Source: Acidobacteriota bacterium (GTDB taxonomy: Bacteria > Acidobacteriota > Blastocatellia > RBC074). Taken from it: DNA of 64,000 nt. Position numbers and translations under genes: made by a program. Where the stretch lies: assembly GCA_016196035.1 (NCBI GenBank), contig JACPYM010000117.1, positions 62,001 to 126,000 of the forward strand, read 5' to 3'. Shown here one piece after another: positions 45,391 to 58,146 of this stretch. Numbering within the stretch: position 1 is the first letter of the stretch; the number at the start of each line of letters is the position of its first letter. The notes under the pieces were generated by a model, which saw only the letters and a list, made by a program, of their open reading frames with translations, was not told the origin of the DNA and searched no databases.

Positions 45391-46726
45391 TAGGAATCTT
45401 GACGCCGCGCACATCAATCTTGCCCGTCGTCGCGGCAGTGATGAGAGCGGTGCGATATTCGGTTAAGCGGTTGATGACAACTTCAGCTAATTCCATTAAC
45501 CGATCAAGTTTTTGAAGCTGAATAATCAAGTGTCCCACAATAGCTGTTTGTTCGAGCAATGGCGGCACGGGAATTAGAAACTTCTTGAGTGTTTCAGTCT
45601 CCATCTTGCGAGTGCCGTGCGCGGACTCTTGCGCCAACCCTGAAAAGACTTTTGCAAATCCAGTAAGGCACCAAAACAAATACTCTACGTTGAGTTGTTC
45701 CCCACAACGGAGCGCCTTCATATCTTGATTGATCGTCACAGCACGCTCTGTAATAGCCGTTGGAAATGAATGAGCCAATATCATCCCTCTCACCACAATT
45801 AGAACAGCGTTCACTGCAATGAGGGGGATTGCCGTTTCTCTTAATGCGGCTTCTGTAATGTGATCAATCGAGTCTGATATACGGGGTTGCTTCATATCCT
45901 TTGGAGTTACCCAAGGAATGTCACCATCCCAATACTCTGAGTTTGCCATGCTGGGAGTCATGCCACCGGACATTGTCATTAGAAATCCGAGCGGAACAAT
46001 CTCCCAATGCTGCGGCACTTGGCCGAGCCAGGGGATGCCGGAATCGCGCAGGGGAGTGGCGGGGTTGAGTCCTTTGGTAACGGCTTGAGTGATGACCGCG
46101 AGGCGCTTTTCCTTGAGCTTTTCCAGCAACTCCCGCTTCCGGGCAATCAGCGCGTCAATCTGCCCCGTCTTCCAGTCCAGAAACGCGGCGATTTGCTGCT
46201 GTTCGCTCTCTCCGGGAAGCGGCAGCTTAAGTTCTTTGTATTTCTCCGCGCTGAAGTTCTCAATCGTTGACTGAATCAGCGTCGAGTTGATGCAAGCCCA
46301 ATAACAAGCTGTCTGGAAGTAGTAATTTGCAAAGCGAGGAAAGATCACGCATTGGTCAGGTCGAAACCGAATCAAGTATCCAGCATAGGCAGCCTTCCCC
46401 CAACTAGACAAATACTGAAAACTTTTACCAACGGTAGCACCGCTGCGAGCAAGCAAAATATCACCGTCCTGAAGCAAGTAAGGAGCGGCAACATCCTCTT
46501 CAAGCGAACGAAACGTGTCATCGTAAAGAGTGCCGTCATCTTTGACATCGGTGATGCGGATGTAACGTGGCAGTCCGCGATCATCAAGAACAGCGGCTTC
46601 GTTGGCTCCATACATCAGCGGTTCGGATGCTGCGAAACGGAGTCGGCGAAACGACCAATGGCGCGGCAATACGCCCAGCCAATCGGGTTCAATCTCGCTG
46701 TAATCGGCGTAAGCCTGATAAGCCAT
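45380..46726 (-). CDS. hsdS: Type I restriction-modification specificity subunit
   Basis: 448 aa. Two target-recognition domains (about 15-190 and 225-380) each open with a similar segment (GVLPRHWSFRRLRF; GQVPQHWEIVPLGF). Each is followed by a conserved helical spacer (ESEQQQIAAFLDWKTGQIDA with KLKEKRLAVITQAVTKGLNP; PPLLEQTAIVGHLI with LTEYRTALITAATTGKID). It determines the bipartite DNA target. The ATG overlaps the hsdM stop (TGATG). The last codons and the TAG stop are read from the AGCTCCGTAG repeat, so KAP at the C-terminus is repeat-derived. Confidence 0.95.
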   Translation of the reverse strand: MAYQAYADYSEIEPDWLGVLPRHWSFRRLRFAASEPLMYGANEAAVLDDRGLPRYIRITDVKDDGTLYDDTFRSLEEDVAAPYLLQDGDILLARSGATVGKSFQYLSSWGKAAYAGYLIRFRPDQCVIFPRFANYYFQTACYWACINSTLIQSTIENFSAEKYKELKLPLPGESEQQQIAAFLDWKTGQIDALIARKRELLEKLKEKRLAVITQAVTKGLNPATPLRDSGIPWLGQVPQHWEIVPLGFLMTMSGGMTPSMANSEYWDGDIPWVTPKDMKQPRISDSIDHITEAALRETAIPLIAVNAVLIVVRGMILAHSFPTAITERAVTINQDMKALRCGEQLNVEYLFWCLTGFAKVFSGLAQESAHGTRKMETETLKKFLIPVPPLLEQTAIVGHLIIQLQKLDRLMELAEVVINRLTEYRTALITAATTGKIDVRGVKIPKAP

Positions 46727-49152
46727 CACACCACCTCCTTCAGCATCGCCATAATCTCCTTCTCCAAATCCGTGATGTCCTTTTCGATCTCGTCCAGCGG
46801 GCGCGGCGGTTCGTATTCGTAAAAGTGGCGGTTGAATGGGATTTCGTAACCGACCTTGATCTTGCTGTGGTCAATCCACGCATCCGCGCGATAGGGCAGC
46901 ACTTCGGCGGCAAGGTAGGCTTCGCAATGGTCGCGCACCAGCGCCAGCAACGGCGCTACGTCCACCTTACCTTTGTTTTTCTTGCCTTCGTAATCGAGCG
47001 GCAGCGGCAACGTGAGGCCCGGCGGGAACGCTACGTTTTCGGTATCGCGCAACTCCGGGTCAGGTTCGGGATTGCCTTTCTTGTCGCGGCAGATTTCGGC
47101 GGACGGGTCGCGCTCGCCCAGACTGCCGGGCGAGAGCAACGCGCTCTGTAATTTGCTGTCGAGTTTGATCCCAGCCGCGTCAAAAGCCTCTGCCAATTGT
47201 TCGGCAAACAGCGCCCGATCTTTGTAGGGTAGGTTCTCAACCTGCCCTACAACCTGACCGGAATAGGGCAGGTTGGAAACCTGCCCTACAACCTGACCGG
47301 AATAGGGCAGGTTGTGAACCTGCCCTACAACCTGACCGGAATAGGGCAGGTTGTGAACCTGCCCTACAACATTCAGGCCTTTCATTCCTTCCAGCACTTC
47401 AAGGATGGCCGCCTGCGCTTCGGCTCCCAACAACTCTTCTTCTTCGATCTTGGCTTTGTTTTTGCGCTTGCGGGAAATGGCGAGTTCGACAAAGGCGCTG
47501 GTGCGTTTGAATCGCGCGATGCGTTCGTCAGTCACGGCGAAATTCAACCGCAACGGACGCTCAACCGTGATCTTGAGATAGCCGAAATCCTGATTGTCGA
47601 AAACCTTGCTGACAAACAGGCTCTTGGTCTGGTCACGTTTGGCGTCAACATTCGTCTGAATCTCGCCGATGGTCATTCGCGCGTCGTGCTTGCAATCGCC
47701 ATAAAGTTTGGTCAGCACTTCGATATGATTGGGCTGTCCTTCGGTTCCGTCGCCAATCTGCTTGCGCTTGTCGCCCAGACTCTTTTTCATCTTCCAGGCG
47801 AACTCAGTGCCGTTGATAAGTTGCACCTTGCCTTTGCGCTCAGGCTGTTTGCGGTTGGTGACAATCCAGACGTAAGTCGAAATGCCCGTGTTATAAAAAA
47901 GCTGATCGGGCAAACCGATGATGGCTTCGAGCATATCGTTTTCGATAATCCAGCGGCGGATGTTGCTTTCGCCACTGCCTGCGTCGCCCGTGAAAAGCGG
48001 CGAGCCATTGAACACGATGGCGATGCGCGAACCTTCGCCTTTGGCAACAGGCGCAGGCTCCATCTTGGAAATCATGTGCAGCAGAAACAACAACGCGCCG
48101 TCATTGATGCGCGGCAAACCGGGGCCGAAACGTCCCTTGAAACCGAACTGCTCGTGTTCGCGCGTCAGGTGATCTTTCTCCGGCTTCCACTCGACGCCGA
48201 AAGGCGGATTGGCCAGCATGTAGTGGAACCGCTCATTCGGGTGTCCGTCGCCATCGGTGAAACCCTCTTTAGACTTGCCCGTGCCGAGCGTGTTGCCGTA
48301 AACGATGTTCTTTACGTCTTCGCCTTTGATCATCAGGTCAGAGCCGCAGATTGCATAAGATTCGGGGTTGTATTCCTGCCCGAAAAGTTCAAGGTTGGCG
48401 CTGGGGTTCAGTCCGGTTTCAGGATCAATGATGAGCTTTTCCGATTCCGAAAGCATCCCGCCCGTGCCCGCCGTCGGGTCGTAAATCTTGATGACCTTGC
48501 CTTCGCGGTAAACCAGATTGTCGTAAGTGAAAAGCACGCGCACCATCAGCTTGATGACTTCGCGCGGCGTGAAATGGTCTCCGGCCTCTTCGTTGGCTTG
48601 CTCATTGAAGCGCCGCACGAGGTCTTCAAAGACGTAACCCATCGCAATGTTGGGAATGGTGTCAGGGTGCAAGTCTACGGCGGCGATTTCTTTGACGACC
48701 TCAAACAGCCGGTTGGCTTCTTCCAGCTTTTCAATCTCGTCGGCAAAGTTGAACTTTTCGATGATCTTGCGCGCCCGCGCTGAGAACCCGGCCATGAACT
48801 TCACCAGATTCGGAGCCAGCTTGTCGGGATCGCCCAACAGGTTCTTGAACGTGAAATCGCTGGTGTTGTGAAAGTTCAGGCTGAACTTTTGATTGATGAT
48901 CTTCTCGATGGCTTCGGCATCGTATCTGGCGACGGTTTTTCCGGCTTCGTTGAGTTTGGTTTCTGCCGCAAGTTTTTTGTGCAACGCGACGACGGCGGCT
49001 TTGCTTTCTTCCAGCACGCAATCAAGGCGGCGCAAGACGGTCAGCGGAATCATCACGCGACGGTATTGCGGCGGACGATACGGGCCGCGCAGCAGGTTGG
49101 CGATATTCCAGATGATGTCGCCGTGTTGTTTGAAGGCATCGAAGTTTTTCAT
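46726..49152 (-). CDS. hsdM: Type I restriction-modification N6-adenine methyltransferase, with 13-residue repeat insert
   Basis: 808 aa from the ATG at 49152. The N-terminal HsdM_N helical domain (about 1-160) is followed by the methyltransferase domain with the SAM motif DPTAGTGGM and catalytic NPPFG. It methylates adenine in the target set by HsdS and protects the host. At about residues 595-643 (bases 47224-47368) lies an in-frame array of a 13-residue unit SGQVVGQVxNLPY. Each unit is encoded by a 39-bp palindrome-bearing repeat that is alien to the family. Whether the enzyme tolerates the insert cannot be told from sequence; the frame is intact on both sides and the C-terminal part resumes as ordinary HsdM. 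Confidence 0.93.
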   Translation of the reverse strand: MKNFDAFKQHGDIIWNIANLLRGPYRPPQYRRVMIPLTVLRRLDCVLEESKAAVVALHKKLAAETKLNEAGKTVARYDAEAIEKIINQKFSLNFHNTSDFTFKNLLGDPDKLAPNLVKFMAGFSARARKIIEKFNFADEIEKLEEANRLFEVVKEIAAVDLHPDTIPNIAMGYVFEDLVRRFNEQANEEAGDHFTPREVIKLMVRVLFTYDNLVYREGKVIKIYDPTAGTGGMLSESEKLIIDPETGLNPSANLELFGQEYNPESYAICGSDLMIKGEDVKNIVYGNTLGTGKSKEGFTDGDGHPNERFHYMLANPPFGVEWKPEKDHLTREHEQFGFKGRFGPGLPRINDGALLFLLHMISKMEPAPVAKGEGSRIAIVFNGSPLFTGDAGSGESNIRRWIIENDMLEAIIGLPDQLFYNTGISTYVWIVTNRKQPERKGKVQLINGTEFAWKMKKSLGDKRKQIGDGTEGQPNHIEVLTKLYGDCKHDARMTIGEIQTNVDAKRDQTKSLFVSKVFDNQDFGYLKITVERPLRLNFAVTDERIARFKRTSAFVELAISRKRKNKAKIEEEELLGAEAQAAILEVLEGMKGLNVVGQVHNLPYSGQVVGQVHNLPYSGQVVGQVSNLPYSGQVVGQVENLPYKDRALFAEQLAEAFDAAGIKLDSKLQSALLSPGSLGERDPSAEICRDKKGNPEPDPELRDTENVAFPPGLTLPLPLDYEGKKNKGKVDVAPLLALVRDHCEAYLAAEVLPYRADAWIDHSKIKVGYEIPFNRHFYEYEPPRPLDEIEKDITDLEKEIMAMLKEVV
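47224..47368. repeat. 39-bp palindromic tandem repeat, four copies, inside hsdM
   Basis: TAGGGCAGGTT-N4-AACCTGCCCTA palindromes start at 47225, 47264, 47303 and 47342, joined by the constant spacer AACCTGACCGGA. The period of 39 bp equals 13 codons, so copies add or drop without frameshift. The first unit differs slightly (TAGGGTAGG). Confidence 0.97.
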
Positions 49153-49188
49153 GAGATGGTAATTTCCAATGTGATAGCTTGGCCAAAA

Positions 49189-49542
49189 ATGGAGCGCGTC
49201 TGTCAACGATTCGATCTATTTGAAGCGAATAAGCCGGGACCTGGACGCGCGGTTGTTTTCTCATCAGCCTATGAGATTGTCAATAATTTGAAACGCGGGG
49301 CTGAGGCCGGAAAAGGCAGGCAAGAGTGGCGGCAAGTGTTTTTAGAGTCCAAGCTTCTGCCGGCGTGGTGCAGCCGCGCGGTTTACGCCGGTGAATAGGG
49401 CCATTTTGGCTGAGATCGGTTGCACGGCGGGTACCGGATTGAGCGGAATGCTCCAAGCGTTTTCGTTGTAGTAAGGTTGCGGCACAGGCACTTGCTGAGG
49501 CGGCTGAATTTTTCCCAAAAATTTTCGGGCGGCTAAGCTTGC
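49189..49542. other. Gap upstream of hsdM
   Basis: The minus strand near 49342-49540 holds a YHYH stub (listed separately). On the plus strand an ORF of 69 codons (49189-49398) has no ribosome-binding site or recognisable domain and I do not call it. No clear hsdM promoter was found. Confidence 0.4.
49342..49540 (-). pseudogene. Stub resembling a YHYH-family protein
   Basis: In the same frame as the stop of the YHYH gene upstream, and without a good start, the minus strand reads ARKFLGKIQPPQQVPVPQP, then YYNENAWSIPLNPVPAVQPI and SAKMALFTG. This is like the segment preceding the conserved core of another YHYH-family protein. It then runs off into unrelated residues and a stop at 49342. The core with its YHYH motif is absent. 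It is probably what remains of a third YHYH gene cut where the restriction-modification island joins. Recognition rests on memory of the family pattern. Confidence 0.5.
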
Positions 49543-51585
49543 TCATCGAATGATGAGCGCACCTTTGTACATGCCCATCCCGCAACCAAAGCTGAGTTCG
49601 CCCGCAGGCAAGGCGGGCAATTCGATCAAGATCGTGCCGTTCAGCGGCAAGGCGCGCGTTAGCCCTAAACTGGGGAAGACGATGCGGCTGGCGCAACCGG
49701 GACGTTGGCGGGCTGTCACCGCCAGCGTGACCGGTTGGCCAGCCGCAATCGTCAACTGCGCGGGTTCATATCCGTGTGGGCCGAGTTCCAGCTTGCTGGC
49801 GTGCGACGGAATCGCCACGGCAACGGTGGCGGATGGCGGTTGCGCCGCGCCGACCTGCAAGACGAAGGGTTGCGTGATGACCTGGCCGCCGCGTTGAAAT
49901 TGCGCCCAGAGCTTGTACAAGCCCGCGCGCGGGAAACTGGTCAGCGTGCGAATTATCGCGGGCGGCGGGCCGAGCGCCGCTTCGTTGTGCACGTGCGGCG
50001 CGGTTGGCGTTGGCGCAAACTGGGGCGCTTCGAGCGGGTGGGCGTGAATGAAACTTTCCTGCCGCTCGTCAATGATGACGAAATGCGCCCAGGCGCCAAG
50101 AAAAGGTTCGAGGTCGCTGATGGCTTGGCCGCTCTTGGCGTCACGAATGGTGAAGGCCAGTTCAACCTCTTCGCCCGCGCGCAATGGTTGGTTGAGCGCC
50201 AAATTCAACTTGAGTCCGACTTGCTCTTTTTGCAACACGGCATCGGCGACGAGCGGCGTGGCGGCAGGTGCTGGCCCGCTCAACGTCAACACAAAACTTT
50301 CGACGCGTTGCGCGCTGCCGGGCGGCGTGCAGTCGGCATACAAACGCCAGCGCCCGCCGTGTGGAAACGTGTGCGTGACTTCGTAACGATCACCCGCCAC
50401 TAGCACAGGATGAATGTGCGCGAATTCGGCGAGGTCTTCTGAAACCACCAGCAGATGCAACGGTCGTTCGTGCACGTATTCGAGCGCGCGCACAGGCGCG
50501 CCGTTCGTTTGGCGCACGGCAAAACTCAGGCGCAACGGTTGCCCGGCGGCGAGTGTTTCGCCATACGCTTTCAATTCAAGTTGCGGCTTGGTCAGCGCCA
50601 GTAATTCCCTGCCTGCGGTTGGGCAATCCTCCGACCCAGCAGCCGCGTCACGAAACGCTGTTTTCAATTCTGCCTCTGCCACTTGTCCGTAATAGCGCCC
50701 GCCCAGCAGGTATGGATAAGCCAGCCGCCCGCGCGCATCGGTCGAAAGGAAATAGGCGTAGGTGCCCGCCGGATATTCAGGCGTGATGGCGAAGCGGCCA
50801 TTGAATTCATCCAGATCGCTTGTACCTGCGCTGTATTCGTAATCTTCGCTAAACGTGCCGAGCGGAAAGTCGGCATTGACCGGCGGGCCGTACTGGCTGG
50901 GCGTCAACGCTGTTCCATCAGGCCAAGCCGTGCGGCGTTCAATCCGGCGCAATTGACAACCCGAACGCATGCGCCGCAGGCTTTGTGTTTCACCATTCAC
51001 ATAACCCCACGGCCCATAAATCGGATAGCCGTCAAAGGCAAAGCCCAGCAAGGGCGAGTGCCGCGTGCCGTCGGCAATCAGGTTTTCAAGCAAGCCCAAA
51101 TCAAGCGTATGCGTCGCGTCGCGCGCATAGCCATTCGCCACGCGCGTGCCGTCATCGCCGCCCGCCAGCGGATCGAAATGCCAAAGATTCTGGCCTTGAT
51201 ACGACGCCGCTTCGAATTGGTTGTAAATCGGCACGCCATTGACGAAGACGCCCAACACATCAGGCCGCACGCTGGGATGCGCGTTGGCGCTGGCGGGCGC
51301 GGGAAAACGCGGGATGTGGAAGATGAACTGGCGCAAGCGTTCGACCTGAGCGAGCGGCGTTTGCAACGGGCCGAGGTAGTACAGCGAAAGGCCAGCCGAT
51401 TGCAGTTCAATATACTGATCGCGCACGTTGACGGCGTGAACTTCGGGTTGCACGCGCGCCAGTGGCCGATTCGTGCTGGCGGCGGGGTTCGTGATCCAAG
51501 CGGTGGTGACAGGCTCCGCTGCGCGCGCGCACGGGACGAGTAAGCAGAACCAGCAGAAGATGTATTTCCAGTTTCTGTGTTTCAT
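49543..51585 (-). CDS. Exported YHYH-domain protein with cupredoxin-like C-terminus
   Basis: 680 aa from the ATG at 51585; signal peptide (KYIFCWFCLLVPCARA). The first ~300 residues match the YHYH domain outside its name motif: VLGVFVNGVPIYNQFEAASY, GFAFDGYPIYGPWGYVNG, GPPVNADFPLGTFSEDYEY and PAGTYAYFLSTDARG. Two beta-sandwich regions follow, with His motifs (FAHIHPV, SFIHAHPLEAP). The last ~85 residues look like a cupredoxin_1/EfeO-type domain ending in FGCGMGMYKGALIIR, where the Cys and Met could bind copper. Periplasmic or extracellular. Neighbours are a second YHYH protein, a CpxP/Spy-like protein and a di-haem oxidoreductase. Confidence 0.82.
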   Translation of the reverse strand: MKHRNWKYIFCWFCLLVPCARAAEPVTTAWITNPAASTNRPLARVQPEVHAVNVRDQYIELQSAGLSLYYLGPLQTPLAQVERLRQFIFHIPRFPAPASANAHPSVRPDVLGVFVNGVPIYNQFEAASYQGQNLWHFDPLAGGDDGTRVANGYARDATHTLDLGLLENLIADGTRHSPLLGFAFDGYPIYGPWGYVNGETQSLRRMRSGCQLRRIERRTAWPDGTALTPSQYGPPVNADFPLGTFSEDYEYSAGTSDLDEFNGRFAITPEYPAGTYAYFLSTDARGRLAYPYLLGGRYYGQVAEAELKTAFRDAAAGSEDCPTAGRELLALTKPQLELKAYGETLAAGQPLRLSFAVRQTNGAPVRALEYVHERPLHLLVVSEDLAEFAHIHPVLVAGDRYEVTHTFPHGGRWRLYADCTPPGSAQRVESFVLTLSGPAPAATPLVADAVLQKEQVGLKLNLALNQPLRAGEEVELAFTIRDAKSGQAISDLEPFLGAWAHFVIIDERQESFIHAHPLEAPQFAPTPTAPHVHNEAALGPPPAIIRTLTSFPRAGLYKLWAQFQRGGQVITQPFVLQVGAAQPPSATVAVAIPSHASKLELGPHGYEPAQLTIAAGQPVTLAVTARQRPGCASRIVFPSLGLTRALPLNGTILIELPALPAGELSFGCGMGMYKGALIIR

Positions 51586-51596
51586 TGCGAGGTTCG

Positions 51597-51719
51597 CCTG
51601 GGTACGCATCGCTTCCAGCGTGCGGTCTCGGCGGGGGACGGATTGATGCCGGAAGGTTTCCTTTCAGCATCTGTCGGTCTGCTGCCGAGACCGCACGCTG
51701 GCAGCGGTGCGCACCCAGG
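51597..51719. repeat. Palindromic element, ~36-bp arms
   Basis: Arms 51597-51632 and 51684-51719 pair with a few mismatches (CCAGCGTGCGGTCTCGGC against its exact complement). It occupies the whole gap between the two YHYH genes. Confidence 0.85.
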
Positions 51720-51722
51720 TTG

Positions 51723-53678
51723 TCACTTGATCGTCAAGTTGACCTGGTTTGAACCACGCCCTTCCGCCGTTACGATCACGCTGACTTTGCCCTTGCCCGC
51801 CAGCGCGCGCGGCAGCAACAGATTGAATTGATCCAGCCCGGCGAAAGTACCCTGCGGCCCGGCAAACGCTGGCGTCACGCTGACGCCACCACCGCTGCTG
51901 TTAAAGCTGGCGCTCACTTGCGCGCTCTTGCCCAAGCCGCTGCCAAAACAGATCAAATACACCTGATCGGATTCGGGGCCGAGATCAATTTGCACCGGCG
52001 TAATCACGCCCGCGTTGCTGACCTGATAGACCGGCTCGAAGCTTTGCTGTCCATTGCGCACGCGGATCAAATAACCCGCCGCTATGCTCTCGCCGCCGAT
52101 TTGAAAGAGGTTGGGATATGCCGCGACCACGTTGATTGCGCCGGGAATCGAGACGCCGCCCGCCGCAATCGTCACGGTCGCCAAGCCGGTCGCGGCATTT
52201 TCAGGCACGCGGTAATTAACTTGCCCCGGCGCGGCGTAGGCCAGCGTGGCGGTGTGATTGACGCCCGCCGCATCACGAATCGTCACGACGCTACCCGCGA
52301 GCGTGGTCGGCCAGGCGGGCGAATCCGCCGCCGCCGTGCCGGTCGCCAGTTTTGCGCCGAAGAGCGGAAAGGCCGACAGCAGCGCGCCGGGCGCAGTCGG
52401 GCCGCCTTCAAACGACGCCGCCGAGACGTGGATGGAACTCAGGCGCACGCCGCCGCCGCCCACATCGTTGCGTTGCGCATTGCTGTAACTCGCGCCGTCC
52501 AGCACGTTGAAAACCGCCACGCCATTCACCCAGATGCCGACTGCGCCCAGCCCAGTTGTGCGTTTGGTCGCGGCGGCGGCGGGCGTGCGCGGCAATTGCA
52601 CACGGAAGTTTTGCGCGGCGGGAAAGTTCATGAAAACGCCACCATTGCCGCCATCAATAAACCACGGCCCCATCACGTAACTGCCCAGATTATTCGACGC
52701 AACATACACCGCCGCGTCGGTGTAGCTGATCGTTTGCGGATCGGCCTTGACCGGCGCGGTCACACCACCGCTGACCTGTGCATTCGCAGGGCGCTCAACC
52801 GGCCACGTCGTTTTGGCTCCGGCGGAAGGATCAAAGCCGCTCACCACGCGCGCGTCCTGTTGCGAGTTTTTGGTCAGCCAGGCATTGAGTTGCGGCGCAT
52901 TCGGGACGGTTTGCGTGAACGCGCCGTTGGCGAAATAGCCCTGTGCCGTGGCGGGCGCGACGGCATTGTTGCTGCCCGCGACGTTGCCGTAATACTGCAT
53001 CCCGATAATGTAGGGGAACGCGGGCGTGCCGTTCTCATCCAGCGTCACGAAATAAGCGTAGGTGCCGTTGGGGAATTCGGGCGTTACGCAGGCGCGTCCG
53101 TTGTACTGATCCAAATCGCCCGCGCCCGAGACGAAATCAAAATCCTCGACGTAACGGCCCAGCGGAAAGGTGTCGGACACATCCGGCCCATACTGATTCG
53201 CCGCCAGCGTTTGCGGGATGTTCGGATGATGCGCCAGCGCCCAGTCGGGCAGCGAGGTGCGTTGCGTGATAGAGCGCAACTTGAAACTCGATTTCATGCG
53301 TTTGATCGCGCTGCTGGGGTTGTTGGGATCGGCAAAACCATACGGCCCATAAATCGGATAGCCATCGAGCGCCCAGCCGAGAATGGGCGAATGCACCCAG
53401 GGCGCAGCTTTTTCACGATAAACGGTACCGGTGCGGCCCGTGTTGACGGTGACGAGATTGTCTTCGAGTTGCGCGCGCAAACAGACGGGCTGCGCGTGGT
53501 GGTGATATTGGCCGTTGCCGGGTTGATGGCCCAGGCATTTGTCAAAGGTTTGCGCTTCGCCGTAATAGGCGTTGCGCACCCAAATGCCGTCGCCTTGCTG
53601 TTGCGGCGGTTGCGCCCACACGGCCACGCTGCCAATCAATAACAAGAGGATGGCGCTGCTCAATGTAACTTTGTTCAT
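51723..53678 (-). CDS. Exported YHYH-domain protein with TIGR03437 C-terminus
   Basis: 651 aa from the ATG at 53678, which has GGGAGG upstream and a signal peptide (SSAILLLLIGSVAVWAQ). The YHYH domain shows GNGQYHHHAQPVCLRAQL, the His-rich signature here read as YHHH, then GWALDGYPIYGPYGFADPNN and FPNGTYAYFVTLDENG. A second segment (about 370-450) has GIWVNGVAVFNVLDGASYSN. The TIGR03437 domain fills about 450-651 (VSAASFEGG, APGQVNYRVPENA, GLDQFNLLLPRALAG). Likely surface-exposed; role unknown. It is transcribed towards the first YHYH gene. Confidence 0.88.
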   Translation of the reverse strand: MNKVTLSSAILLLLIGSVAVWAQPPQQQGDGIWVRNAYYGEAQTFDKCLGHQPGNGQYHHHAQPVCLRAQLEDNLVTVNTGRTGTVYREKAAPWVHSPILGWALDGYPIYGPYGFADPNNPSSAIKRMKSSFKLRSITQRTSLPDWALAHHPNIPQTLAANQYGPDVSDTFPLGRYVEDFDFVSGAGDLDQYNGRACVTPEFPNGTYAYFVTLDENGTPAFPYIIGMQYYGNVAGSNNAVAPATAQGYFANGAFTQTVPNAPQLNAWLTKNSQQDARVVSGFDPSAGAKTTWPVERPANAQVSGGVTAPVKADPQTISYTDAAVYVASNNLGSYVMGPWFIDGGNGGVFMNFPAAQNFRVQLPRTPAAAATKRTTGLGAVGIWVNGVAVFNVLDGASYSNAQRNDVGGGGVRLSSIHVSAASFEGGPTAPGALLSAFPLFGAKLATGTAAADSPAWPTTLAGSVVTIRDAAGVNHTATLAYAAPGQVNYRVPENAATGLATVTIAAGGVSIPGAINVVAAYPNLFQIGGESIAAGYLIRVRNGQQSFEPVYQVSNAGVITPVQIDLGPESDQVYLICFGSGLGKSAQVSASFNSSGGGVSVTPAFAGPQGTFAGLDQFNLLLPRALAGKGKVSVIVTAEGRGSNQVNLTIK

Positions 53679-53719
53679 GTTCTGCTCCCTCCCAGTTGCG
53701 TTCTCGAATTGGCGAAGCC

Positions 53720-53820
53720 TTTGGAGTGCGTGCGGCACAGGCCGCCGCTTTGGTATGCCCTTCACTAGCTACGATTCAAAGGATTACCAAAGCGGCGGCC
53801 TGTGCCGCACGCACTCCAAA
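53720..53820. repeat. Palindromic element, 36-bp perfect arms
   Basis: Bases 53720-53755 and 53785-53820 are exactly complementary around a 29-base loop. This is the longest perfect stem in the window. It lies between the CpxP/Spy-like gene and the YHYH gene. Confidence 0.95.
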
Positions 53821-53837
53821 GACGCTGCGCGTCAAAA

Positions 53838-54323
53838 TCAGCACAAGCGTTCTTGTTCAGGGCGCGGCGGAGGCGGGCGATGCGCTTCGTGCTCGGCGTG
53901 GAATTGATCGAGCTTGGCGCGTTGTTCCGCCGTCAACACCTGATAAATCGCCGCGTCTTTGCGGGCGCGAATCACCGTCAACTCAATCTCACTTTGCGCG
54001 ATGGCCGCCGCCAACGCGCGCACTTGCGCTTCATTGAATTGACCCTTGGCGGTCGCCGCTTCGAGCGCCTCGTGCGCCTCGCGGAGTTTGTCAAAATACG
54101 CTTCGGCCTGGGCGTCTTCGGTGTCTTGAATTGTTTTGACTTGCGCTTTTTGCGCGTCGCTCAGATCGAGAAAATGCAGCCGCATTCGCCCGCCATCCGG
54201 CGGCGGCGGGCCACCGGGGCCGCGTTCACCTGGCCCGTGTCCTTGGGCGAAAGCCATTGTCATTAACAGGCCGGCGCCCAGGGCCAGCACGCTCAGGACA
54301 TTCAGTGTGTTGGGAAATTTCAT
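53838..54323 (-). CDS. CpxP/Spy-like periplasmic protein (LTXXQ family)
   Basis: 161 aa with a signal peptide (LSVLALGAGLLMTMAFAQ), a Gly/Pro/Arg-rich linker (GPGERGPGGPPPPDGG) and a long helical domain. The two LTXXQ-type motifs are present (LDLSDAQKAQVKTIQDTEDA; LTAEQRAKLDQFHAEH). Spy/CpxP proteins are periplasmic chaperones and feedback inhibitors of envelope-stress kinases. The promoter carries a paired GTAAA-N6-GTAAA motif like CpxR boxes, and a kinase/regulator pair lies 1.8 kb away. Confidence 0.88.
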   Translation of the reverse strand: MKFPNTLNVLSVLALGAGLLMTMAFAQGHGPGERGPGGPPPPDGGRMRLHFLDLSDAQKAQVKTIQDTEDAQAEAYFDKLREAHEALEAATAKGQFNEAQVRALAAAIAQSEIELTVIRARKDAAIYQVLTAEQRAKLDQFHAEHEAHRPPPPRPEQERLC

Positions 54324-54385: not shown

Positions 54386-54459
54386 ACTATACGCACAAAG
54401 CAACGCGGCGTGTGTAAACCCTGGGTAAACAGCAATGCGCTTTGTAAAGGGCTGGTAAA
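54386..54459 (-). promoter_or_regulatory. Putative CpxR-like box pair and promoter of the CpxP/Spy-like gene
   Basis: On the plus strand GTAAA starts at 54414, 54425, 54444 and 54455: two direct-repeat boxes GTAAA-N6-GTAAA (11-bp period) set 30 bp apart. A TATAGT -10-like hexamer reads towards the Spy-like gene at 54391-54386 with no -35 consensus, as expected for an activator-dependent promoter. The known E. coli CpxR box is GTAAA-N4-8-GTAAA. The same layout recurs at 56046-56119. Confidence 0.65.
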
Positions 54460-54463
54460 GCAT

Positions 54464-54507
54464 GCGCAAAAGGAGGGCGAACAATTCTTTCCGCCCTCCT
54501 TTTGCGC
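54464..54507 (-). terminator. Hairpin directly after the di-haem oxidoreductase gene
   Basis: A 16-bp perfect stem (54464-54479 with 54492-54507) abuts the stop codon at 54508. It contains AAAAGGAGGG but lacks a T-run on the minus strand, so the terminator call is tentative. Confidence 0.6.
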
Positions 54508-55731
54508 TTAGAGCGAACGCAGGAAAGCCAGTACCTGTCCGCGCTGCAATCCATTCAGCAAACGATAACGCGACATCACCTGTGCCGCTTCGCCGCGATG
54601 GCGCAGGATGGCTTCGTCAAAGGTCAGCGCCGTGCCATCGTGCAAGAGGCGATTGCGCGTGCGCACGCCCCAGAGCGGTGGCGTGCGCAATTTGCTGGCC
54701 GTCGCCGGGCCGCCGTTTTGAACGATGCCATCGCCCGTGCCGACATCGTGCAAGAGGAAGTCGCTGTAAGGATGAATGAGCTTGTTGCCGAGCGCAGGCG
54801 GCACGACGAATGAGCCGCCGTTGAGCGACGTGCCCGGCGGCGCGGTTTGCAAAGTTGGCACGTGGCAGACCGCACAACCGATCACGCCGAAGACCTGTGC
54901 GCCCGCGCGCGCTTCCGGCGCGGCGGCCAACGCTTCATCGCGCGACGGCGCTTTGCTGGCGCGCATAAAGCGGGCAAAGACGTCAATATCGCCATCCGCA
55001 TCTTCGGGTTCCGGCACGTTGTCAAAAGCGGCGATGGGACGTCCCATCGAGGTGTTCTCTTCCATCAGCAAATAACTGGTGATGCCGATTTCGTTCAGAT
55101 AAGCATCCGCCGAAAACGACAGCAAGCTGGCGTGCTGATTCTTCCACCCGAAGCGGCCCACGCGCGTCTGGCCGGGCGCTTCGAGCAGGGGTACCTGAAT
55201 CACTTGCCCGGCAATTGCGCCGCGCGTGTCACGGGCCTGTTGGCGAGCAAGCTGAATCAGAGTTTCATCGGCGATGGCTTCGACATAACCGTCGCCCAGT
55301 GTGGTCAGCGAGGTGCGGAAGGTTTGAATGGTTTCGCCATACGTCACGTATTCCTGCAACGACGGGTGAATGGCGCGGTCGTGAATCAGCGAACCGCCGG
55401 GCGCTTCGACAAAGTTGCCCTGCGCGTCGCGATGCCCGGCGCGCAACACCGTCACTTGGCTGATGCCGCCCGTGACCGGGTTCTGATGGCATTCGACACA
55501 GCCTTGCGCGTTGTAAACCGGCCCCAGCCCTTTCTCGATCTCGTCGCGTTCTTCAAATGTTTCGCGGTCATGATCGAAAGTGGTTTGATCCACCATGCCG
55601 TTGGTTTTGTTATCAAAGCCAGTGGCGGCTTCGGTCAAACCTTGTTGCCCAGCCACTGGCCGCACCAACGTGGTGGGCCACGTGAGCATCGTCACGAAAA
55701 GTACGAGCACCGAAAGCTTCAAAAATTTCAT
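54508..55731 (-). CDS. Di-haem oxidoreductase (DHOR / CcP-like)
   Basis: 407 aa with a signal peptide (LSVLVLFVTMLTWPTTLV). Two haem sites: CVECH (about residue 78) and CAVCH (about 286). The DHOR pattern includes FEERDEIEKGLGPVYNAQGC, GWKNQHASLLSFSADAYLNE, IGITSYLLMEE, PPLWGVRTRNRLLHDGTALT and FDEAILRHRGEA. This family is related to bacterial cytochrome c peroxidases, but the substrate is generally unknown. Periplasmic. A second GTAAA box pair lies upstream at 56046-56119, separated by a palindromic element. Confidence 0.92.
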   Translation of the reverse strand: MKFLKLSVLVLFVTMLTWPTTLVRPVAGQQGLTEAATGFDNKTNGMVDQTTFDHDRETFEERDEIEKGLGPVYNAQGCVECHQNPVTGGISQVTVLRAGHRDAQGNFVEAPGGSLIHDRAIHPSLQEYVTYGETIQTFRTSLTTLGDGYVEAIADETLIQLARQQARDTRGAIAGQVIQVPLLEAPGQTRVGRFGWKNQHASLLSFSADAYLNEIGITSYLLMEENTSMGRPIAAFDNVPEPEDADGDIDVFARFMRASKAPSRDEALAAAPEARAGAQVFGVIGCAVCHVPTLQTAPPGTSLNGGSFVVPPALGNKLIHPYSDFLLHDVGTGDGIVQNGGPATASKLRTPPLWGVRTRNRLLHDGTALTFDEAILRHRGEAAQVMSRYRLLNGLQRGQVLAFLRSL

Positions 55732-55858
55732 CTTGATTCATCCTCCATGAGCGTGGCGTTAGCGTGACGCGGACACACTGCCCCCCTTCCGGGACGGCCC
55801 CAGTCACGATTGATTTATTGCTGTGGGTTGCCGGTGTAGCTTGTTCGTCGGGGCCATC

Positions 55859-55981
55859 CCTGGGAGCGCAGGCATCCTGCCTGCCGGGGGAAAGCCGCGT
55901 AGCGTTCCTCATCCCGTCAGAGAGAATAAGGAAGGCTGCGCCGCTTCTTTTGTAGTAGGCAGGAATGCCTGCGCTCCCAGG
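55859..55981. repeat. Palindromic element (CTGGGAGCGCAGGCATCC family)
   Basis: Arms 55859-55882 and 55957-55981 pair with a one-base bulge around a ~75-base centre. It sits between the putative promoter at 56046 and the start of the di-haem oxidoreductase, lengthening that leader to more than 300 bases. Confidence 0.85.
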
Positions 55982-56045
55982 AAATCATCAATATGCGTTG
56001 GGGCCGTTGCGCAGCGTGTTACCTCGCTGCTCATTTGCGAGGCGG

Positions 56046-56119
56046 ACTATAAACGCAAAGCGCGCGGCGCACTGTAAATTCCAGGTAAGCAAGCGGGCGC
56101 TTTGTAAAAGGCTGGTAAA
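56046..56119. promoter_or_regulatory. Putative CpxR-like box pair between the di-haem oxidoreductase and kinase genes
   Basis: Half-sites start at 56074 (GTAAA), 56085 (GTAAG), 56104 (GTAAA) and 56115 (GTAAA): the same 11-bp and 30-bp spacings as at 54414-54459. A TATAGT reading leftwards lies at 56051-56046, in the same relative position. The region lies between the divergent di-haem oxidoreductase (-) and kinase/regulator (+) genes and could serve both. Confidence 0.6.
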
Positions 56120-56172
56120 TTCGCGGGCGGGCAATGTCAGGCACCGCAATGCTGACGTAAAATGCGCGCGCT

Positions 56173-58146
56173 ATGTGGCAACGAATCCAAACCAGCATGC
56201 GGGCCAACTGGCTGCTGTGCGGCGGCGCGGCGTTGTGCGTGCTGTTGCTGTTGACCGCCATATTGCAATACCGCTGGATCAATCGCGTCAGCGAAGCCGA
56301 TCAGCAACTGCGGCACATCCTGTTGGAAATGACGCTGCGCAACTTCCAACGAGACTTTGACCGCCGGTTGCGCGACACCTTGCAATTTTATCAACGTGTC
56401 CTGGGCGTCACGCCCGGCACGGCTTGGGAACCGCGCCTCAACGCCGCGTTGAATCGCTGGCAAACCGAAAGCGCCGAAGCGCGGTTGGTCGAAGCCGTCA
56501 GCTTCGCCACGCTGGACGCGGCGGGCACGCCCGTCTTCAAACGCCGCGCTGGCAATGCCGCCGCTTTCACGTCACAGCCCTGGCCTGTGGCATTGCGGCC
56601 CTATCGCCAAATGCTTGCCCAGCGTTTGCGCACACGCGGGGGCGAGTTGCCGCTCACGCCGCGCGATCTGGTGCAGGAGTTTTCCGCCGACAAGCCCGTG
56701 CTCGTCTTTCAATTGGTCGAAGACGCCGCGCGCCAAGCCGAACTGGCGGCCTCGCCCGACGCTGCTGACCGTCCCGGCAGGTTGCCGCAACGCAAGCTTG
56801 AGGAATTCTTCAATTCGCTCACACCCGCCCCCGCCAAGCTGCCGCAGGGCCGGGCGGAGTTGGCGGGCTGGGTTTTCCTCGAACTCGACGCGGCCTATAT
56901 GCAAACGCAATGGCTGCCGGAAATGTTAAAGCGGTACTTCGGCCAACGCGGCATGGAGGGTTATCAATTGGCGCTGTTGACCGGCCAGCCGCCACGCGCG
57001 CTGTATGTGTCAAACGCCGCACCCGCCGACGCATTTGTCACCGCCGACGCGGCGCTGGTGCTTTTCACGCGCCGCATTCAAACCAGCCAGGAAGCTGGCC
57101 CGCCCAATGGCCCGCCGCCACCGCCACCACCGCCACCGCCGCGCGCTGGACAACCCGACGCAGGCTCACCGCCTGAAGGGCCGCCGAATGAAGGGCCGCC
57201 AGAGGCCGGGCCGCCACGTACAGGCCGCAGGCTGCGGGAAGAATTCACGGCCTTCAATGCCGCCGCTGACCCGGCGGCCTGGCGCTTGGTCGTAAAGGAT
57301 GTTTCCGGCTCGGTGGACACGGCGATTGCGCAGGCGCGCCGCCGCAATCTGGCGCTGGCGCTCGGCGTGCTGCTGATCCTATCCGCGAGTTTTGTGTTGA
57401 TGATTGTGGCGACGCAGCGCGCCCGCCGCCTGGCCGCGCAACAATTGGAATTTGTCGCGGGCGTTTCGCACGAGTTGCGCACGCCGCTGTCGGTCATCCA
57501 ATCCACCAGCCACAATCTGGCGCAAGGCATGGTCAAAGACGCCGCGCGCGTGCAACAGTACGGTGCGGCCATCCAAACCGAAGTGCGCCGCTTGTCGAAC
57601 CAGGTCGAACAGATGCTCGCCTTCGCGGGCGTTCAATCGGGACGCAAGCTCTACGACTTGCGCCCGCTCAACCTCGCTGAAGTTTGCGAACACGCGCTGG
57701 CCGAATACGCCGCCGTGTTTGCCGCCGACGGCTGGCAGATCGAATGTAACTTGCCTGCGGAGCTGCCGCCCGTGCTGGCCGATGCCCAGGCGTTGGAAAG
57801 CGCGCTCAAGAACCTGTTGCACAACGCGCAAAAATACGCCGCCGCTGGCCGCTGGCTGAGCCTGAGCGCGACCACAATGACGGCGCGTCAACGCACCGAA
57901 GTGCAACTGACCATCGCCGATCACGGCCCCGGCATTGCAGCGGCGGATGTGCCGCACATCTTCGAGCCGTTCTATCGCAGCCCGCGCATCGTGGCGACCA
58001 CCATTCCCGGCGCGGGTTTGGGCTTGAGTCTGGTGCAACGGCATTTGCAAGCGATGGGCGGGCGCGTGACGGTGAAAACGGCGGAAGGCGCCGGCACCGC
58101 ATTCACGCTGCATTTGCCTGCCATCATCCCGGAACACGGCTCATGA
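56173..58146 (+). CDS. Two-component sensor histidine kinase with Pro-rich periplasmic segment
   Basis: 657 aa. TM1 at about 14-36 (WLLCGGAALCVLLLLTAILQ), then a large periplasmic domain (~360 residues) ending in a Pro-rich stretch (NGPPPPPPPPPPRAGQP and several GPP repeats, about 310-352). TM2 lies at about 394-415 (LALALGVLLILSASFVLMIV). HisKA: GVSHELRTPLSVIQ with H433; HATPase: LKNLLHNAQKYA, DHGPGIAAADVPHIFEPFYR and GAGLGLSLVQRHLQAMGG. No HAMP is obvious. It overlaps its response regulator by 4 bp. Neighbourhood and promoter motif suggest a Cpx-like envelope-stress sensor. Confidence 0.93.
   Translation: MWQRIQTSMRANWLLCGGAALCVLLLLTAILQYRWINRVSEADQQLRHILLEMTLRNFQRDFDRRLRDTLQFYQRVLGVTPGTAWEPRLNAALNRWQTESAEARLVEAVSFATLDAAGTPVFKRRAGNAAAFTSQPWPVALRPYRQMLAQRLRTRGGELPLTPRDLVQEFSADKPVLVFQLVEDAARQAELAASPDAADRPGRLPQRKLEEFFNSLTPAPAKLPQGRAELAGWVFLELDAAYMQTQWLPEMLKRYFGQRGMEGYQLALLTGQPPRALYVSNAAPADAFVTADAALVLFTRRIQTSQEAGPPNGPPPPPPPPPPRAGQPDAGSPPEGPPNEGPPEAGPPRTGRRLREEFTAFNAAADPAAWRLVVKDVSGSVDTAIAQARRRNLALALGVLLILSASFVLMIVATQRARRLAAQQLEFVAGVSHELRTPLSVIQSTSHNLAQGMVKDAARVQQYGAAIQTEVRRLSNQVEQMLAFAGVQSGRKLYDLRPLNLAEVCEHALAEYAAVFAADGWQIECNLPAELPPVLADAQALESALKNLLHNAQKYAAAGRWLSLSATTMTARQRTEVQLTIADHGPGIAAADVPHIFEPFYRSPRIVATTIPGAGLGLSLVQRHLQAMGGRVTVKTAEGAGTAFTLHLPAIIPEHGS

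Follow-up and report, generated by a model that had tools for sequence, protein, structure and literature searches.

Genes and operators of the locus

The window, by which is meant the whole 64,000-nt stretch of DNA analysed, carries two direct-repeat regions (operators 1 and 2) lying among leftward genes coding for a CpxP/Spy-family protein (the LTXXQ gene), a di-haem oxidoreductase (DHOR) and YHYH proteins, and next to a rightward pair coding for a sensor histidine kinase and a response regulator (Table 1). Domain matches agree with a sequence-only reading of the same DNA, which had placed the first region upstream of a CpxP/Spy-family gene and the second between a di-haem oxidoreductase and the kinase/regulator pair. 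The LTXXQ protein reaches 48 bits against PF07813 (cut-off 24.3) and stays below the cut-offs of the NCBIfam CpxP and Spy equivalog models. Features of OmpR/PhoB-family two-component systems are present: a regulator with receiver and Trans_reg_C domains, a HisKA/HATPase kinase and a direct-repeat operator. No Pfam domain match was obtained for the sensor region of the kinase; its structure model (pLDDT 85) gave weak matches, with a best E of 3.8e-3, to the dCache ligand-binding domains of KinD, TlpQ and McpU.

Table 1. Features of the locus, with positions in the window
Feature	Position	Strand	Remarks
YHYH + HIHP + cupredoxin protein	49543..51609	-	domain matches
YHYH protein	51723..53672	-	downstream of LTXXQ gene
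CpxP/Spy-family periplasmic protein, 161 aa	53838..54323	-	Metal_resist PF13801 1e-16, LTXXQ PF07813 2e-12
-10 box, LTXXQ promoter	54386..54391	-	TATAGT on minus strand, 22 bp from proximal half-site
Operator 1, four TTTAC half-sites	54414..54459	-	spacing 11/19/11; upstream of LTXXQ gene
Di-haem oxidoreductase (DHOR, PF06537), 407 aa	54508..55731	-	Pfam domain match
-10 box, leftward promoter toward di-haem gene	56046..56051	-	TATAGT on minus strand
Operator 2	56074..56119	-	half-sites 56074, 56085 (GTAAG), 56104, 56115; also upstream of kinase
Probable kinase -10 box, TAAAAT	56158..56163	+	38 bp right of last half-site; relatives TATAAT or TAAGAT
Sensor histidine kinase, 657 aa	56173..58146	+	HisKA + HATPase_c; dCache-like periplasmic region
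OmpR/PhoB-family response regulator, 232 aa	58143..58841	+	best models MtrA/CseB/RpaB/WalR; recognition helix TRTVDVHVGWLRQKL

The paired GTAAA-N6-GTAAA repeats with 11-bp and 30-bp spacing described in the sequence-only reading are found in both copies, save for one half-site. In operator 1 the plus-strand GTAAA half-sites at 54414, 54425, 54444 and 54455 are all exact, and in operator 2 the three others are exact and the one at 56085 reads GTAAG. The half-site spacing of 11/19/11 bp, and hence 30 bp from pair to pair, is identical in the two. Read on the minus strand, both take the form TTTAC-N6-TTTAC-N14-TTTAC-N6-TTTAC, with one variant half-site in operator 2, followed by 22 bp and then TATAGT; the equal distance of this hexamer (ACTATA on the plus strand) from the first GTAAA, already remarked upon in that reading, is exactly 22 bp in each case. 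The box at the matching position of orthologous operators reads TATAGT, TAGCAT, TAAGAT or TAAAAT. The 47-bp blocks of the two operators are 77% identical, and exact single GTAAA-N6-GTAAA pairs number three in the 64 kb, against 0.03 expected by chance.

A distance of 315 bp separates the di-haem gene from its -10 box, and an inverted-repeat element (55859-55981, 17-nt arms, 100%) lies in this interval. This element in the di-haem gene leader resembles a dispersed repeat element, as does another located 3' of the LTXXQ gene (53719-53821, 44-nt arms, 93%). Gly/Pro-rich stretches (GPPNGPPPPP..., GPGGPPPPDGG) occur in the sensor region of the kinase (57100-57230) and in the LTXXQ protein (54180-54240), and likewise in a paralogue pair of the congener G003 (L018). 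Further left, 46726-49206 encodes a type I restriction-modification M-like protein in which a VGQVHNLPYSGQV-type peptide is repeated in tandem.

Distribution of the operator and its associated genes

When up to two mismatches were allowed in the four-site pattern, a search of the 9.59-Mb genome returned only the two window copies, and none for the reversed control. With up to one mismatch, 162 Blastocatellia genomes gave 13 places (reversed control 0), eight of them upstream of a window-type kinase, the window included. The remaining five are the window LTXXQ gene, the DHOR orthologue of G003, a cupredoxin-YHYH operon in another genus (G062) and two one-mismatch matches of other kinds. Exact operator copies precede the kinase orthologue in seven further Blastocatellia genomes, and among 396 genomes drawn evenly across the phylum operator matches were confined to genomes of the window's class, two of which have the module. 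Since several operator-bearing genomes are close kin, these represent about four independent lineages. The sequence-only reading had proposed conservation upstream of orthologous genes as its own test, and paired sites do recur upstream of the kinase, of LTXXQ genes and, in the congener, of the di-haem gene. The operator pair is real and conserved across the class.

Named genomes supplied the kinase relatives, of which the nearer are mostly from Acidobacteria MAGs. An unbiased count of repeated 5-mers with a 6-bp gap in 49 kinase upstream regions ranked TTTAC/GTAAA first, in 11 loci; the runner-up TAAAG, which overlaps it, occurred in 5/49 (shuffle maximum 2), and at gaps of 4, 5 and 7 no 5-mer repeat in these regions rose above shuffles. 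In all 11 loci the pair has the same orientation relative to the kinase coding strand and lies 41-99 bp before the ATG, one locus having an extra pair at -199. Two pairs exactly 30 bp apart are found in 6/11 (window, L019, L020, L024, L025 and L034), and these paired forms have a leftward -10-like box 22-23 bp left of the first half-site. Across the window and its relatives, a kinase -10 box (TAAAAT, TAAGAT or TATAAT) follows the last half-site at 38-47 bp. No such sites were found upstream of more distant kinases whose regulators have a near-identical recognition helix. LTXXQ genes are recurrent neighbours within the kinase family, including members without operator sites. The family itself (56173-57400, L019-L068), with its dCache-like sensor lacking a Pfam match, is common in Acidobacteria and has members in one Verrucomicrobiota and two Chloroflexota-type MAGs.

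Among LTXXQ homologues of the class, 12/30 carry TTTAC-N5/6-TTTAC upstream in gene orientation and one in the opposite orientation, against a mean of 0.03 and a maximum of 2 in 500 shuffles; half-site control of LTXXQ genes would thus be widespread in the class. A -10-like hexamer shows its strongest enrichment where 22 bp separate it from the proximal half-site, and most repeat-bearing LTXXQ genes adjoin an OmpR-family regulator gene. The di-haem association looks recent, because TTTAC repeats were detected upstream of only 2/30 DHOR homologues, both of the window's genus (a built-in control). In G003, the DHOR orthologue (74% identity) and its exact operator are on a separate contig, and the kinase, located elsewhere, still has one pair. 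The YHYH protein at 51723-53672 is 71% identical to one from G010, of the same family, that likewise follows an LTXXQ gene, and the C-terminal part of the 49543-51609 protein is 45-48% identical to proteins of G062 and G138 under the same kind of operator. The suggested tie of this operator type to CpxP/Spy-family, di-haem and possibly YHYH genes is borne out in relatives, where it extends to cupredoxin genes.

A broad regulon of the envelope-stress kind did not emerge. The whole genome has ten exact single pairs, compared with five for the reversed control; three lie in the window and the other seven are mostly intragenic. Allowing one mismatch at most, a combined search for promoter and pair gave one place in the genome beyond the window (control 5), and no exact pair was found within the fetched loci of the two other Metal_resist genes. 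The module is small, its operator being found at two promoters in its own genome.

A one-mismatch match in G004, upstream of an HD-domain-like gene, was counted as something else and not as part of the module. Similarly set aside were three loci (L005, L006 and L007, from G005, G006 and G009) in which four GTAAA at 10/9/11-bp steps precede a different kinase; these repeats sit between that kinase and a divergent regulator-like gene, are conserved in three genera and belong to another circuit with the same half-site. In the window's own genome, direct repeats GTAAA, GTAAA, GTTAA and GTAAA at 11-bp steps (C35:51826; L109 around 1501) are intergenic, upstream of a secreted-protein gene.

Lineage of the regulator and comparison with known systems

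The sequence-only reading had linked the operators to a Cpx-like pair. Against the CpxR equivalog model (NF008199), the window regulator scores 152 bits, far from the cut-off of 341, and is better matched by MtrA (208 bits) and by CseB, RpaB and WalR (193-195 bits); PhoB and others also outscore CpxR. Membership in WalR, RpaB or MtrA was rejected, all scores being below curated cut-offs (for WalR, or YycF, 193 bits against 340). In the tree, the window regulator belongs to a separate clade (100/99). E. coli CpxR nests instead with Blastocatellia regulators adjoining LTXXQ genes (96/91 for all, 89/98 for the inner group); because it is a long branch, we are surer that it lies outside the window clade than of where exactly it attaches. 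The kinase matches the CpxA model over the kinase core only (93 bits, cut-off 486), and its sensor is dCache-like. Judged by its sequence, the regulator is not of the CpxR lineage, and the pair is not Cpx itself.

Like CpxRA-CpxP, the window combines an OmpR-family regulator with a CpxP/Spy-like LTXXQ target. The CpxR consensus GTAAA-N4-8-GTAAA (PMC5063474) is present upstream of its CpxP-type gene, and E. coli cpxP has a TTTAC-N5-TTTAC direct repeat in gene orientation, as at the window LTXXQ gene. The two systems differ in recognition helix (TRTVDVHVGWLRQKL in the window regulator, FDRAIDMHISNLRRKL in E. coli CpxR), in gene order (kinase then regulator, as opposed to cpxR then cpxA), in the sensor, in the two predicted dimer sites 30 bp apart, in the putative di-haem and cupredoxin/YHYH targets and in the finding of only two promoters in the genome. 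The module is Cpx-like in that a CpxP/Spy-type gene is coupled with a two-component pair, and by regulator, kinase and gene order it is outside the CpxRA family.

Nor is the GTAAA-N6-GTAAA repeat specific to CpxR. The WalR site, a TGTWAH-N5-TGTWAH direct repeat (PMC4168254), has the same 11-bp period; the window operators fit its period and core, but the position ahead of each pair's second half-site is G where the WalR consensus has T (GGTAAA/GGTAAG). RpaB recognises HLR1, a direct repeat of TTACA (PMC9241938). Since the direct repeats of CpxR and WalR resemble each other in core and RpaB has its TTACA repeat, the half-site by itself cannot identify the regulator. The targets of WalRK/VicRK, RpaB and MtrA differ from those of the window module.

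Regulators of the CpxR clade are also encoded in the class, two of them on other contigs of the window's own genome (C50 and C14). In the loci surveyed (L186-L191 and L193, from G120, G076, G035, G093, G010 and own-genome C50 and C14) they are usually divergent from an LTXXQ gene, and many such loci have TTTAC repeats between the divergent genes. Eight LTXXQ-adjoining regulators were scored: CpxR was the best model in 5/8 and among the best four in 8/8, the five CpxR-best regulators reaching 217-232 bits, below the cut-off of 341. These are likely Cpx-homologous loci of Acidobacteriota, and they are arranged as in E. coli, where cpxP adjoins and diverges from cpxRA. As in the window, TTTAC repeats stand at the LTXXQ gene, many with 22 bp to the -10 box. 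Unlike in the window, the regulator groups with E. coli CpxR, a HAMP kinase follows it, and the half-sites often form uninterrupted 10/11/11 runs in which TTGAC or TTAAC variants occur. In G010 (L191), the LTXXQ gene and the YHYH gene after it adjoin a CpxR-clade pair, so that comparable target sets stand under both circuits.

Predicted circuit and its alternatives

The layout, the autoregulatory position of operator 2 and the restriction of the operator to this kinase's module favour the adjacent regulator; we think it likely, with some reserve, that both regions are its operators and that it would activate the leftward genes and the kinase. With its dCache-like periplasmic domain the kinase would detect a signal of the envelope or metal/redox kind and then phosphorylate the regulator, two dimers of which would occupy the TTTAC-N6-TTTAC pairs, whose 30-bp separation amounts to about three helical turns. 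With the proximal half-site at about -39 to -35, the regulator would take the place of a -35 element. Operator 1 would direct leftward transcription of the LTXXQ gene, possibly onward into the YHYH genes, and operator 2 that of the di-haem gene. Operator 2 may also serve the kinase promoter, since 38 bp separate its end from the kinase -10 box downstream, an arrangement that suggests positive autoregulation. Weighing against this reading are the CpxR-clade regulators of the genome, the missing sites at more distant kinases whose regulators have a near-identical helix, the small number of independent lineages and the long, repeat-bearing interval before the di-haem gene. Regulator binding, activation in preference to repression, the signal and YHYH co-transcription are all inferred from the sequence. 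Copper is a plausible signal, given the cupredoxin and Metal_resist domains.

That a CpxR-clade regulator (C50 or C14) does most of the binding, acting in trans, is rather unlikely; the window genes would then belong to a Cpx-type regulon with the neighbouring pair as just another target. Both regulators could bind the same half-site, the one on C50 has a TTTACCATCCCTTAAC site near its start, and elsewhere in the class LTXXQ genes diverge from CpxR-clade regulators with TTTAC repeats between, as in E. coli; however, the 11/19/11 geometry with no mismatch is found only at genes of the window kinase's module, CpxR-clade sites often being of the 10/11/11 kind, and the operator is kept upstream of window-type kinases even where no LTXXQ gene is adjacent. 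True orthology of the window pair to proteobacterial CpxRA is very improbable: there is a likeness to cpxP/cpxRA in half-site, in LTXXQ target and in how the genes are arranged locally, but both proteins fall far under the CpxR and CpxA cut-offs, the tree puts CpxR in a different Blastocatellia clade, and sensor fold and gene order differ.

OmpR-family regulators are able to repress from positions in the -35 region, which the proximal half-site touches, and the regulator might instead block the leftward promoters until a signal releases it, or exert dual control. We regard this as improbable, since no -35 hexamer is evident at any leftward promoter and the constant distance of 22 bp from a conserved -10 box accords with activation. 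The likeness of the two window copies might suggest chance similarity or a recent, non-functional duplication, but this is scarcely credible: it is contradicted by conservation across genera, by a reversed control of zero in 162 genomes, by constant orientation and spacing, by the 5-mer enrichment upstream of kinases and by the count for LTXXQ genes.

With local activation preferred, the locus is probably a self-activating two-component module acting in a Cpx-like manner on CpxP/Spy, YHYH, cupredoxin and di-haem genes, in which a stress sensor probably switches on CpxP/Spy-like and metal/redox-type envelope genes through the operators. The literature searches made on a circuit of the envelope-stress type in Acidobacteriota found nothing, and the module provides a computational anchor for one, with regulator, operator and targets predicted for poorly characterised soil bacteria. 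Through it, two kinds of uncharacterised protein, YHYH and di-haem, are linked with a gene set that is CpxP/Spy-like and contains cupredoxins. More tentatively, two distinct OmpR-family lineages of Blastocatellia, CpxR-clade and MtrA/RpaB-like, may share the TTTAC half-site and the 22-bp geometry at CpxP/Spy-type genes, the LTXXQ, YHYH, cupredoxin and di-haem sets having moved between circuits in a rewiring of regulons by operator capture. The locus offers a test case for how a binding site becomes common to regulators of separate lineages and how these swap target genes.
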